Shown here: in pieces, positions 12,894 through 18,448 of the stretch | Numbering within the stretch: position 1 is the first letter of the stretch | Layout of the letters: each line of letters opens with the position of its first letter | Origin: Peterkaempfera bronchialis | GTDB taxonomy: Bacteria > Actinomycetota > Actinomycetes > Streptomycetales > Streptomycetaceae | Assembly (NCBI RefSeq): GCF_003258605.2 | Contig: NZ_CP031264.1 | Coordinates: 2,542,001 to 2,606,000, forward strand | Length of the DNA: 64,000 nt | Direction: 5' to 3' | The notes under the pieces: model-generated | Seen by the model: the letters and a program-made list of their open reading frames with translations, nothing else | The model's database searches: none | Told to the model about the DNA's origin: nothing | Translations under genes and position numbers: made by a program

Positions 12894-14183
12894 ATGCCTG
12901 CCGCCAGTACCGGGGCGTCCCTGGCCCTGCCCTCGGACGCCCGTACCACCGCCGCCCCCGCAGCCGATCTCCGCCACCGCACCGGCGAGCCCGGCTTCCG
13001 CCGCGCCAACCTGGCCCTCTTCGCCGCCGGCGTCGCCACCTTCGTGCTGCTGTACTGCACCCAGGGCCTGCTGCCCGTGCTCTCCGCCGACCTCGGGCTC
13101 ACCCCCGGCCAGGCCAGTTGGACCGCCTCCGCCGCCACCCTCGGCCTGGCCGCCGCGCTGCTCCCGGCCAGCGCGCTCTCCGACCGCTTCGGCCGCACCG
13201 CCGTGATGACCGCCTCCGTCTTCGGCGCCGCGCTGATCGGCCTGGCGCTGCCCTTGGCGCCCAACCTCACCACCCTGGTGATCCTGCGGGTGGTCCAGGG
13301 AGCGGCGCTGGCCGGACTGCCCGCCACCGCCATGGCCTACCTCGCGGAGGAGCTGCACCCCTCGGCGCTGGCCGGTGCCATGGGCCTGTATGTGGCCGGC
13401 AACAGCATCGGCGGCATGGGCGGCCGGCTCCTCTCCGGCTGGGTCGCCGCCTCCTGGGGCTGGCGCTGGGGCATCGCCTCCACCGCCGTCCTGGCGCTGG
13501 CCTGCGCCGTCGCGTTCCGGCTGCTGGTCCCCGCCGCCCGGCAGTTCCGCCGCACCCCGGTCGACGCCCGCGCCCTGGCCCGCACCGTCGGCGGCCATCT
13601 GGGCAACCCGCTGCTGGTCCGGCTGTACGCACTGGGTGCGGCCTTCATGGCCGTCTTCGGCGCCGTCTACAACACCGCCGGATACCGCCTGATCGCCGAA
13701 CCGTTCAACCTGCCCGAGTCGCTGGCCGCCTCCATCTTCGTGGTCTACCTGGTCGGCACCGTCACCTCCGCCACCGCCGGCAGGCTGGCCGGACGGCTCG
13801 GCCGACGCGGCGCCCTGTACGCCGCCATCGGCACCACCACCGCCGGCCTGCTGCTCAGCCTCGCCGACAACCTGGTCTGCGCCCTGCTCGGCCTGGTCCT
13901 GATCACCGGCGGTTTCTTCGCCGGCCACGCCGTGGCCTCCTCGTCCGTCGGCCGCACCGCCACCACCGGCCGCGCCCAGGCGTCCGCGCTCTATCTGATC
14001 GCCTACTACGTCGGCAACAGCCTCGGCGGCACCCTCGGCGCCGACGCCTACCACTCCGCCGCCTGGTCCGGCACCACCGCCGTCGGCCTCGCCGCCATGG
14101 CCCTCGCCGCCGGAGTCACCCTCTACGCCACCCGCCGCGCCGTGGTCACCCGCCGCGCCCACGGCCTGTCGCACCCGGCATAA
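12894..14183 (+). CDS. MFS transporter, YnfM-like
   Basis: 429 residues with about twelve membrane segments. The loop motif SDRFGRTAV between TM2 and TM3 is the MFS A-motif; a second half begins near residue 235 after the cytoplasmic loop LARTVGGHLGNPL. It is a drug:proton antiporter-type single polypeptide exporting an unknown small molecule, probably induced through the divergent LysR regulator. Confidence 0.88.
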   Translation: MPAASTGASLALPSDARTTAAPAADLRHRTGEPGFRRANLALFAAGVATFVLLYCTQGLLPVLSADLGLTPGQASWTASAATLGLAAALLPASALSDRFGRTAVMTASVFGAALIGLALPLAPNLTTLVILRVVQGAALAGLPATAMAYLAEELHPSALAGAMGLYVAGNSIGGMGGRLLSGWVAASWGWRWGIASTAVLALACAVAFRLLVPAARQFRRTPVDARALARTVGGHLGNPLLVRLYALGAAFMAVFGAVYNTAGYRLIAEPFNLPESLAASIFVVYLVGTVTSATAGRLAGRLGRRGALYAAIGTTTAGLLLSLADNLVCALLGLVLITGGFFAGHAVASSSVGRTATTGRAQASALYLIAYYVGNSLGGTLGADAYHSAAWSGTTAVGLAAMALAAGVTLYATRRAVVTRRAHGLSHPA

Positions 14184-14204
14184 CCGCAGGTCCCCCTGCC
14201 CGGA

Positions 14205-14239
14205 CCGGCAACCCACCGGGGTGACTCGGCGGGTGCCGG
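14205..14239 (+). terminator. Possible hairpin after the MFS gene
   Basis: CCGGCAACCCACCG (14205-14218) pairs imperfectly with CGGCGGGTGCCGG (14227-14239), 22 bp after the stop. Confidence 0.4.
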
Positions 14240-14350
14240 AATCGGGCGGTTCCGGGCGGAGAAGCGGGGTTCCAGCCATCCCACCCGGCATGCCCACGGC
14301 AAAAAGTCCTGTCGTCAGCCTTGCCAAACCTGGGCGGTACCTCTGAAGCT

Positions 14351-14364
14351 TGGGAGCGCTCCCA
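14351..14364 (+). promoter_or_regulatory. CebR operator (CebR box)
   Basis: TGGGAGCGCTCCCA is a perfect 14-bp palindrome identical to the established CebR box, the site at which the cellobiose-responsive LacI-type repressor CebR blocks cellulase and cellobiose transporter genes in streptomycetes. It lies 40 bp before the cellulase start. The cebR gene is not in the window. Confidence 0.93.
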
Positions 14365-14403
14365 CACCACCCCCACCCTTTGGCACTGCGGAAGGAACCC
14401 CGC

Positions 14404-15618
14404 GTGAGATCTCCGCTTCGCGTCTTCGCCATGGCGGTACTGGCCGTCTTCGGCCTGATGGGCACCATGCTGGCGACAGCACTGCCTGCCCAGGCCGACA
14501 CGCTCATCTGCGACCAGTACGGAACTGCCACCGTCCAGGGCCGCTATGTAGTCCAGAACAACCGCTGGGGCACCAGCGCCACCCAGTGCATCAATGTGAC
14601 CAGCAACGGCTTCGACGTCACCCAGGCCGACGGCTCCGTCGCGACCAACGGTGCGCCCAAGTCGTACCCCTCGATCTACAACGGCTGCCACTACGGCAAC
14701 TGCTCCCCCGGCACCAACCTGCCGGCGCAGGTCAGCTCGATCAGCAGCGCACCCAGCAGCATCTCGTACACCTACGTCAGCGGTGCGACCTATGACGCGG
14801 CGTACGACATCTGGCTGGACCCGACGGCCAAGAAGACCGGGGTCAACCAGACCGAGATCATGATCTGGTTCAACCGGGTGGGCTCCATCCAGCCCATCGG
14901 CTCCTCGGTCGGCTCGGCGTCGGTCGGCGGCCGGACCTGGGACGTCTGGACCGGCAGCAACGGGTCCAACAACGTGATCTCCTTTGTCGCGCCGTCCGCG
15001 ATCAACAGCTGGAGCTTCGACGTCAAGGACTTCATCGCCGAGACCGTCAGGCGCGGCATGGCCCAGAACTCCTGGTACCTGACCAGCGTGCAGGCCGGCT
15101 TCGAGCCGTGGCAGAACGGCGCCGGGCTGAAGATCACCTCCTTCTCCTCCACCGTGAACACCGGCGGAAGCGGCACCGGCGGCACCACCACCGGGGGCAC
15201 CACCACCGGCGGCACGACCACCGGGGGCAGCACCACTGGCGGCACCACCACTGGCGGCACGACCACCGGGGGCACGACCGGCGGCGGCACCACCGGCGGC
15301 TGCAAGATCGCCTACGTCGCCAACTCCTGGCCGGGCGGCTTCACCGCCGATGTGACCGTCACCAACTCCGGTTCCACCGCGGTCAACGGCTGGAAGGTGG
15401 GCTTCACCCTGCCCAGCGGCCAGACCATCACCAACGCCTGGAACGCGTCCATCACGCCGAGCAGCGGAGCCGTGACCGCCACCAACACCTCCTCCAACGG
15501 CCAGATCGCGGCCAACGGCGGAACCCAGTCGTTCGGCTTCCAGGGCACCTACACCGGCTCCACCTTCGCCAAGCCGGCCCAGTTCACCCTGAACGGCACA
15601 GCCTGCACCACCGCCTGA
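14404..15618 (+). CDS. Secreted GH12 endoglucanase with CBM2
   Basis: 404 residues from the GTG at 14404, with GGAAGGA at 14390-14396. An earlier in-frame TTG would put the CebR box inside the gene and is rejected. Signal peptide about 1-31 (cut after AQA). GH12 domain about 32-250: Glu151 in QTEIMIWF is the expected nucleophile and Glu234 in AGFEPWQNG the acid/base. A linker of GGTTT repeats (about 253-299) leads to a CBM2 cellulose-binding module from Cys300 to Cys401, probably disulfide-bonded. It cuts internal beta-1,4-glucan bonds outside the cell and should be induced by cellobiose through CebR. Confidence 0.93.
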   Translation: MRSPLRVFAMAVLAVFGLMGTMLATALPAQADTLICDQYGTATVQGRYVVQNNRWGTSATQCINVTSNGFDVTQADGSVATNGAPKSYPSIYNGCHYGNCSPGTNLPAQVSSISSAPSSISYTYVSGATYDAAYDIWLDPTAKKTGVNQTEIMIWFNRVGSIQPIGSSVGSASVGGRTWDVWTGSNGSNNVISFVAPSAINSWSFDVKDFIAETVRRGMAQNSWYLTSVQAGFEPWQNGAGLKITSFSSTVNTGGSGTGGTTTGGTTTGGTTTGGSTTGGTTTGGTTTGGTTGGGTTGGCKIAYVANSWPGGFTADVTVTNSGSTAVNGWKVGFTLPSGQTITNAWNASITPSSGAVTATNTSSNGQIAANGGTQSFGFQGTYTGSTFAKPAQFTLNGTACTTA

Positions 15619-15638
15619 CCCCCAACCCCCCCCACCCC

Positions 15639-15670
15639 AGGCCCGGACCGCGCCCCCGCGGTCCGGGCCT
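15639..15670 (+). terminator. Strong terminator after the cellulase
   Basis: Perfect 14-bp stem (15639-15652 with 15657-15670) and CCCC loop, 20 bp after the stop codon. Confidence 0.85.
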
Positions 15671-15999
15671 GCTCCATGTCCTGCTCCGTCCATGGCCACG
15701 AAGGTTCCGACCGGGCAGCACCGAAGCCTGCTGGCGGGACCCCTTCCCTGACGATCCCGACACCGGAGCGGCGTCGCACCACTGCACCCTGTGGCGGTGA
15801 CGATCTGGGCCATTTGAGGACCCCGGCAACCGTCAGACCGCTACGATCCTGCCTTCAGCGAAGTCGCTGCCCCTTGGATGGATACCGCTACGTTCCGTAA
15901 CCAGCAGCGGCATGGGTGAGCGTCGAGCGAGCCGGAGGGCGGCCTGGATGAGCCATCGGGGTGGACCGTGCGTAGGTATCGATGCATTGAGTACGAAGG
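15671..15999. other. No recognisable gene
   Basis: About 330 bp with less GC than the flanks and no frame showing convincing protein pattern on either strand. It probably belongs to the eroded accessory patch that continues to 17.1 kb. Confidence 0.5.
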
Positions 16000-16581
16000 G
16001 TGAGCTACAGGGGGGGTCACTCATATGGGTGTACCGCACCCAAAGCGACCCATCCGGCCTGCCGAGATGGAACATACTTCCTCGGCGTCACAGAGGGGGC
16101 AGTCTCGCAAGTACTGAACGGGGACGGGAACATCCGTGTCTCCACTCTGGGCCGCTACTTGCGCGCAATGGGGTACGAAGCCCGCCTGGAGTTGGTTCCG
16201 GTCGAGTCTTCCGCCCCTCCGGTGACATCAGCGCGTCGGCGGCCCCGTCAAGGTGCCGACGAGTCGAATGAACGCCATGCAGCCAACCGGTCGCGGGAGA
16301 GCCGTGCAACCGTCTCGGTCTCGCGATGCAACGTGACCGACGGGAACGTGGTGGCACAGGCACTGCTCCTCGTCCTGCCGCACGACCCGTCGGAGGGACA
16401 GTCGGAACCGCCCGTCCGCCAGGATGCCAACCGCTCGTGGTACATGCTCGACGCCAGTTTCTCGAGTGGTGCTTGCGGTCAGACGTGGCGCACGTCCTCC
16501 ACCTCGACCAGTCGAAGTGCCGAGCGTGAAGGTCCCGGTCTCAACCCTCCGTCTCCTGCGATCGAGGTAACCAAGAAGTGA
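16000..16581 (+). pseudogene. Remnant of an HTH regulator (XRE/antitoxin-like)
   Basis: The frame from 16000 shows a convincing HTH C-terminal half only at about residues 27-70: FLGVTEGAVSQVLNGDG, then STLGRYLRAMGYEARLEL. This matches the recognition helix and following segment of XRE-type antitoxins. The N-terminal helices are missing in all frames, and the last 110 residues have no recognisable pattern. The frame ends in GTGA overlapping the start of the SecB-like gene, so the two were probably translated together. It could instead be an intact but highly diverged gene. Confidence 0.45.
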
Positions 16582-17081
16582 GCGGCGACCAGATGCAGGG
16601 CCGGCAACCGTCGATCAGCGACTCGGCGTCACTTCTCGAAGTGTTGCTCGGTGACGCGTCAGTCGTCCGAGGCCCCGCCACCAACTACAAGCCCGGCCCG
16701 GCTCGGATCTCCATCGATTCCGAGGGATCGTTCCATCGCTCGCCCGGCGAGCCCGCCACTGCCGGTGTCGTCGTCTGCAAGGACGAGTACGTGGCTCAGC
16801 TCCGCAACACCGACGGGGAGACCATCGCTGAAATCAAGGCATCCTTTGTGGCCGCATTCTCGGTGGAATGCGACGAGGAGCCTGACAAGGACGAGCTGGA
16901 GGAATTCGCCGGGTCTACGGGGAGGCTTGTGCTCCGCCCCTACGCTCGCGAGTTCATGCACCAGATGTCTACCCGCATGGGCATCCCCGCGTTGACCCTG
17001 GAAGTACTCCGCTTCAAAGGAACCGTCATCGACGAAGACGACCCTTCCAAGACGTTCCGGCAGGGCGAAGTCCGGACCTGA
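16578..17081 (+). CDS. SecB-like protein, possible toxin-antitoxin chaperone
   Basis: 167 residues, GTG start overlapping the upstream stop. The C-terminal part has the SecB pattern: acidic DELEEFAGSTGRLVLRP, then PYAREFMHQMSTRMG and IPALTLEVLRF, comparable with the PYAR...GFP.L.L segment of SecB. The middle (VAQLRNTDGETIAEIKASFV) fits SecB beta strands. In M. tuberculosis Rv1957 is a SecB-like chaperone beside HigBA in a toxin-antitoxin-chaperone system, and the HTH remnant directly upstream fits that design. No toxin gene is visible. It could instead be a general actinobacterial SecB-like protein. Confidence 0.55.
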   Translation: MSGDQMQGRQPSISDSASLLEVLLGDASVVRGPATNYKPGPARISIDSEGSFHRSPGEPATAGVVVCKDEYVAQLRNTDGETIAEIKASFVAAFSVECDEEPDKDELEEFAGSTGRLVLRPYAREFMHQMSTRMGIPALTLEVLRFKGTVIDEDDPSKTFRQGEVRT

Positions 17082-17110
17082 AGAACGGCTTCTTCGACCG
17101 ACGGCGAACA

Positions 17111-17156
17111 GACGGGCGCCCGGCCAGCCCCGTGCGGGGTCGGCCGGGCGCCCGTC
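17111..17156. terminator. Bidirectional two-tier terminator
   Basis: Perfect 15-bp stem (17111-17125 with 17142-17156) whose loop holds a second 5-bp hairpin. It lies between the convergent SecB-like gene and deoA. Confidence 0.85.
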
Positions 17157-17170
17157 GGGGGTGTCAGGTG

Positions 17171-18448
17171 TCAGGCGATGCGGTCGAGGATGAGGGGGAC
17201 GGGGGTGAAGGGGGTGGTGGGCGGGGCGATGGTGAGGGCGTCGGTGAGGGCTTCGAGGGCGTAGTCGAAGCGCTCGGGGGTGTCGGTGTGCAGGGTGAGC
17301 AGCGGCTGGCCCTGGGTGACGGTGGCGCCGGGCTTGGCGTGGATCTCCACGCCGGCGCCGGCCTGGACCGGGTCCTCCTTGCGGGCGCGGCCGGCGCCGA
17401 GGCGCCAGGCGCAGACGCCGACGGCGTAGGCGTCGAGGCCGGTCAGCACGCCCGAGGACGGGGCGGTGACCACCTGCTGCTCACCGGCGACCGGGAGGGC
17501 CGCGTCGGGGTCGCCGCCCTGGGCGGTGATCATGCGGCGCCAGTGGTCCATGGCGGAGCCGTCACGCAGCGCGTCCGCCGGGTCCTTGCCGTGCACCCCG
17601 GCGGCGGCGAGCATTTCGCGGGCCAGCGCGAGGGTGAGCTCCACGACGTCGGCGGGGCCGCCGCCGGCCAGCACCTCCACCGACTCGCGGACCTCCAGCG
17701 CGTTGCCCGCGGTGAGGCCCAGCGGGACGGACATGTCGGTGAGCAGGGCGCGGGTGTCGACCCCGGCGGCCTTGCCCAGGGCGACCATGGTGCTGGCCAG
17801 TTCGCGGGCGTCGGCCAGGTCCTTCATAAAGGCGCCGGAGCCGACCTTGACGTCCAGTACCAGGGCGCCGGTGCCCTCGGCGATCTTCTTGCTCATGATG
17901 GAGCTGGCGATCAGCGGGATGGCCTCGACGGTGCCGGTGACGTCCCGCAGCGCGTAGAGCTTCTTGTCGGCGGGGGCGAGCCCGTCGCCCGCCGCGCAGA
18001 TGACGGCGCCGCAGTCGCGCAGCGTCTGCATCATCTCGTCGGTGGAGAGCAGCGCCCGCCAGCCGGGGATGGACTCCAGCTTGTCCAGGGTGCCGCCGGT
18101 GTGGCCGAGGCCGCGGCCGGAGAGCTGCGGGACGGCGGCGCCGCAGGCGGCGACCAGCGGGGCCAGCGGGAGGGTGATCTTGTCCCCGACGCCGCCGGTG
18201 GAGTGCTTGTCGGCGGTGGGCAGCGGCAGGGAGGAGAAGTCCATCCGCTCGCCGGAGCGGATCATGGCGTCGGTCCAGCGGCTGATCTCATGCGGGTTCA
18301 TGCCGTTGAGCAGGATGGCCATGGCGAGCGCGGCCATCTGCTCGTCGGCCACGTCGCCTCGGGTGTAGGCGTCGATCACCCAGTCGATCTGCGCGTCGGT
18401 GAGTTCGCCGCGGTCCCGCTTGGTCCGGATGACGGAGATGGCGTCCAT
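17171..18448 (-). CDS. deoA: Thymidine phosphorylase
   Basis: 425 residues, ATG at 18448. It splits thymidine or deoxyuridine with phosphate to base and deoxyribose 1-phosphate. The family signature SGRGLGHTGGTLDKLES is present, as are KHSTGGVGDK (phosphate loop) and LDVKVGSGAFMK. It is the last gene of the run bmpA-ABC-permease-permease-cdd-deoA and completes pyrimidine nucleoside breakdown. A related pyrimidine-nucleoside phosphorylase cannot be excluded. Confidence 0.93.
   Translation of the reverse strand: MDAISVIRTKRDRGELTDAQIDWVIDAYTRGDVADEQMAALAMAILLNGMNPHEISRWTDAMIRSGERMDFSSLPLPTADKHSTGGVGDKITLPLAPLVAACGAAVPQLSGRGLGHTGGTLDKLESIPGWRALLSTDEMMQTLRDCGAVICAAGDGLAPADKKLYALRDVTGTVEAIPLIASSIMSKKIAEGTGALVLDVKVGSGAFMKDLADARELASTMVALGKAAGVDTRALLTDMSVPLGLTAGNALEVRESVEVLAGGGPADVVELTLALAREMLAAAGVHGKDPADALRDGSAMDHWRRMITAQGGDPDAALPVAGEQQVVTAPSSGVLTGLDAYAVGVCAWRLGAGRARKEDPVQAGAGVEIHAKPGATVTQGQPLLTLHTDTPERFDYALEALTDALTIAPPTTPFTPVPLILDRIA

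Follow-up and report, generated by a model that had tools for sequence, protein, structure and literature searches.

The window, i.e., the whole 64,000-nucleotide stretch of DNA that was analysed, contains a SecB-like gene directly behind the remains of an XRE-type antitoxin gene (Table 1). The GTG start of the SecB-like gene (16578-16580) shares bases with the stop codon of the upstream frame, TGA (16579-16581), and codon usage matches the chaperone frame from about 16580. Two strong hairpins flank the locus on either side. The downstream one accounts for a weak Rfam match at 17049-17165.

Table 1. Features of the locus (positions in the window) and related loci (positions within each locus).
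Feature	Position	Strand	Remarks
Stretch from the upstream gene to the junction	15680..16060		No coding signal; no toxin, mobile-element or RNA-family match
Likely deletion junction	16060..16085		Antitoxin homology from 16081 onwards; no toxin or antitoxin N-terminus to the left
XRE-type antitoxin gene truncated at its 5' end: back half of the HTH (LGVTEGAVSQVLNGDGN...) and C-terminal extension	16081..16578	+	tblastn, codon usage; open until it meets the chaperone start
Plausible chaperone-gene ribosome-binding site (GAGG)	16564..16567	+	10 bases before the GTG; read in the sequence
SecB-like (TAC-type) chaperone gene	16578..17081	+	167 aa, GTG start, frame intact
Strong, terminator-like hairpin after the chaperone gene, before the convergent next gene	17111..17156		-50.2 kcal/mol for 17108-17165 (RNA parameters)
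AlpA-like HTH/SecB-like loci	L014 77-1947; L072 1421-3382 (G562); L073 963-2937 (G710); L019/L075 1716-2800; L059/L074 1608-2767
Complete-TAC loci outside the family			L003, L004, L006, L007, L012, L013, L015-L017, L031-L033, L035, L037-L039
Complete-TAC loci of the window's own family (5 of 21)			L060, L062, L063, L064, L066

The first-pass annotation had recognised a SecB C-terminal pattern in the 167-residue product, and both of its motifs (PYAREFMHQM and IPALTL) are present. The protein scored below the gathering cut-off of Pfam SecB (PF02556, E = 0.016, 15.6 bits against 26 bits), which the chaperones of two complete toxin-antitoxin-chaperone (TAC) loci (L003 and L004) also missed, and it was under the NCBIfam SecB cut-off as well (E = 0.0066). 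A single-sequence phmmer search of solved structures returned Rv1957 of Mycobacterium tuberculosis (5MTW) as its sole match (E = 7.8e-9), and a ten-row profile reached the same protein at E = 5.5e-46.

We compared an AlphaFold2 model of the protein (mean pLDDT 76.6) with known structures. The model matched Rv1957/5MTW with Z = 16.7 over 129 residues (2.2 A), and the canonical, solitary SecB proteins of Escherichia coli and Haemophilus influenzae with Z of 14-14.6, far above the Z of about 6 of unrelated structures. It contains the four-strand antiparallel sheet and long helix of the SecB-fold superfamily. Because both the phmmer match and the modelled fold point to SecB, the motif match is not due to chance, and the objection that 16578-17081 might encode no SecB fold fails. 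Residues P121, R124, E125, R133 and G135, which are invariant across eleven relatives, are all retained. Judged from the model, the product is a SecB-fold protein whose nearest solved structure is Rv1957. The relationship is distant, with 23% identity over the aligned structure. Canonical SecB shares the fold and the PYARE signature with it, but identity is 13-18% over the aligned part.

The upstream frame gave a match to Pfam HTH_3 that covers half of the domain (E = 0.015). We searched the region by tblastn with the antitoxins of L004, L015, L016, L060, L063, L064 and L068, and all seven matches began at 16081 in the HTH frame (L015, E = 6e-19, the best; L068, 2e-15; L064, 7e-12; L004, 8e-9). 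Homology is demonstrable up to about 16366, and codon usage is coding-like in this frame as far as about 16450, with no such signal ahead of about 16040. The C-terminal extension aligns in part with those of L015 and L068, and no clear coding signal is seen over the final ~130 bases (16450-16578). A frameshift near 16420, hinted at by codon-position GC, gained no support from codon usage, which was merely uninformative there. From these comparisons, 16081-16578 is a beheaded ordinary XRE antitoxin of the type found beside SecB-like genes elsewhere.

The missing N-terminus had also been reported in the first-pass annotation, and the loss was borne out: the first ~48 antitoxin residues had no tblastn match in any frame of 15600-16080, and the DNA from about 15680 to 16040 is not coding-like in any frame. 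Two other readings of that annotation hold in part. The HTH frame that it placed at 16000-16581 is of XRE type from 16081, but its leading part, up to ~16081, is not antitoxin. The GTGA overlap does exist in the sequence, although the original antitoxin need not have ended there.

The annotation had also offered a novel regulator in a two-part system. A reading of this kind is a true antitoxin/chaperone or regulator/chaperone unit whose HTH protein starts at 16000. The frame is open from 15991 to 16578, a length reached in 0.4% of shuffles, and HTH/SecB-like units with no detected toxin occur at L019 and L059, but these have a different HTH. The first half of the HTH is absent, 16000-16080 has neither homology nor a clear coding signal, and relatives with the same HTH type have the full domain and a toxin. 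We consider this reading very improbable; it is unsupported at the window locus, where the HTH belongs to a truncated ordinary antitoxin.

A toxin gene, which precedes the antitoxin in a TAC, was not found. Four toxins of related loci were searched against 15600-16600, and the best score (E = 0.23) was no better than those in shuffled DNA (E = 0.006-0.19). The Gp49 family had no match in the genome of the window, whereas the same search was positive in 3 of the 14 genomes used as controls. A search with the L068 toxin, which lacked a positive control, came back empty too. The absence of the toxin, as first annotated, therefore stands. Neither a mobile-element remnant nor an RNA gene was indicated between 15620 and 16580, as plasmids, relatives and Rfam gave no relevant match. 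A 26-bp match in G078 was judged to be chance, and no insertion sequence or other scar was seen at the deletion. The antitoxin search of the genome returned the window fragment and two weak matches (E = 0.05 and 0.43), and a profile search found one SecB-like gene with no second copy.

The truncation sits within a gene, as would be expected if an intact TAC were masked by an assembly or sequencing error. However, the genome is a single contig with an estimated completeness of 100%, no toxin match lies elsewhere in it, and the antitoxin's missing front half has no match in any frame of 15600-16080. Such an error is extremely improbable.

Genomes, plasmids and phages were scanned for homologues. 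A pattern scan with the single protein sequence found no relatives, and profiles were required; these recovered distant homologues, mostly with 20-36% identity. The material searched contained no close homologue of the chaperone (best identity about 29-36%). Genes at the related loci were assigned with HMMs built for this analysis, and Pfam confirmed some of the assignments. Redundant pairs were collapsed (L003 = L034, L012 = L036), and L005, with three internal stops, and L070 were excluded.

Counting the window, an XRE-type antitoxin lies upstream of the chaperone gene at 23 non-redundant loci, and 21 of these have the order Gp49/RelE-like toxin, XRE antitoxin, SecB-like chaperone. The complete loci include a Rhodococcus plasmid (L006) and Gordonia phage Floral (L007). 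Related genomes thus do carry an HTH partner, and the possibility that the gene always stands without one is dismissed. The two exceptions, the window locus and L020, are both decayed. Within the same family, L060, L063 and L064 share the HTH subtype (SAVxQxxRGDGNLR) and the gene order with the window but, unlike it, are complete (Gp49-like toxin, XRE antitoxin, SecB-like chaperone).

L020 (1468-2429), also of this family, has a truncated toxin start fused into the antitoxin, and its antitoxin and chaperone are apparently shortened; its genome has 7% contamination. L068 (824-1875) pairs a toxin with an XRE antitoxin whose subtype matches that of the window fragment; the ~2.8 kb examined downstream (L071) contain no detectable SecB-like gene.

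The thymidine-phosphorylase-like gene (named by eye) downstream of the locus and an MFS-like gene, which lies beyond the other, upstream neighbour of the locus, bound an interval at 14183-17171 of the window. The two sampled congeners, G001 and G002, carry other genes beside the same downstream gene, and no SecB-like gene was found in them; in G002 the interval holds other cargo. In G004, a third relative, the two bounding genes are about 140 bp apart. Gene content in this interval thus varies, and the module looks acquired.

In a SecB tree, the chaperone joined an Rv1957-type group with support of 91/95, which was not starred and makes the grouping weak. Rv1957 itself is absent from the tree, and the clade is labelled from the match of Rv1957 to the profile of the group. 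Most branches were unsupported, and long branches make the tree unreliable, so we draw no claim of ancestry from it. The HTH fragment, in contrast, belongs to an XRE subtype other than that of the Rv1957-type clade. The chaperone and the antitoxin fragment may derive from separate operons, and it is possible that two TACs recombined at the locus.

In the TACs studied so far, the chaperone protects the antitoxin and, by binding to its C-terminal extension, lets it fold and neutralise the toxin (PMC5105189, PMC3968373). In M. tuberculosis (Rv1955 HigB1, Rv1956 HigA1, Rv1957 SecB-like) the SecB-fold chaperone gene directly follows the XRE antitoxin gene, as in the window, but the window has no toxin and its antitoxin is short of about 48 N-terminal residues. 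A toxin-less antitoxin/chaperone pair in M. smegmatis was ascribed to probable toxin loss (PMC3968373), and surveys have found SecB-like genes accompanied by antitoxins alone (PMC4257090, PMC3968373). The window resembles the M. smegmatis pair, in which the toxin gene is lost and the chaperone gene kept. However, that pair has a complete antitoxin, whereas here the antitoxin is broken too, one decay step further.

We suggest, with a probability of about 0.83, that the locus is a decayed TAC of the HigBA/Rv1955-1957 kind from which the toxin and the front of the antitoxin were deleted and in which the chaperone gene remains. This reading draws on the predicted SecB fold, the antitoxin homology and its truncation, the lack of a detectable toxin and the full gene order in relatives, and it agrees with the earlier proposal that the chaperone outlived its toxin-antitoxin pair. 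The ancestral unit would have comprised a Gp49/RelE-like toxin, an XRE-type antitoxin bearing a C-terminal extension and a SecB-like chaperone, probably brought in by horizontal transfer. A single deletion ending at about 16081 may then have taken out the toxin together with the first half of the antitoxin DNA-binding domain. Because the toxin and the start of that domain are gone, neither toxicity nor autorepression would be possible and the circuit could not run. The chaperone, if expressed, would probably be a SecB-type holdase lacking its client, and we infer that the locus has no function at present.

The main argument against this lack of function is the intact chaperone frame with its conserved residues. 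A stop-free frame of this length occurs in about 1% of same-composition shuffles, and the gene has a plausible ribosome-binding site. It could then be a working solitary chaperone, for general protein holding or Sec export, that was retained beyond the loss of its toxin and antitoxin; chaperones of TACs, the M. smegmatis one among them, are able to replace SecB in E. coli (PMC5105189; PMC3968373). However, a SecB-like gene was detected by profile in just 9 of 395 genomes of the family, that of the window included, so it is very rare, and it was missing from both congeners. The promoter of the ancestral operon would also have sat upstream of the lost toxin. We therefore regard a working solitary chaperone as unlikely. 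That the chaperone was selected for a new job, such as stabilising antitoxins of incoming phage or plasmid TACs to shield the cell, or serving as a monoderm SecB, is quite doubtful.

The locus is best read as a further decayed example of the known three-gene system and not as a new one, and taken alone it is ordinary. With no toxin, a beheaded antitoxin and a remaining chaperone, it represents a stage of TAC decay beyond the published M. smegmatis pair. Such remnants may account for part of the sporadic 'solitary' SecB-like genes of monoderm bacteria, a group of genes for which function is listed as an open question (PMC4257090).

In the Gordonia phages Floral and Pollux, a SecB-like protein is encoded that bears the annotation 'hypothetical'; in Floral (L007, 2558-3863) its gene comes after those of a RelE-like toxin and an HTH protein, and the group lies between the immunity repressor and integrases. 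In the lambda-like E. coli phage PhiR70_1 (L008, 2272-3794), an MqsA-type antitoxin (Pfam, E = 1.9e-17) and a SecB-like gene sit between cI and kil, and a 136-aa ORF with no Pfam match comes before them.

Five further loci, all actinobacterial, have an AlpA-like HTH protein in place of the XRE antitoxin (Table 1). There the SecB-like gene lies behind a protein of ~215-260 aa with an N-terminal domain and the AlpA-like HTH. A third, unannotated gene lying further upstream is common to L014, G562 and G710, with 32-49% identity and a W..GW.L....H.WGRI.C pattern; it had no significant family match (Pfam and NCBIfam for the L014 and G562 copies, Pfam for the G710 copy). These loci are possibly TACs with an undescribed type of toxin and antitoxin.
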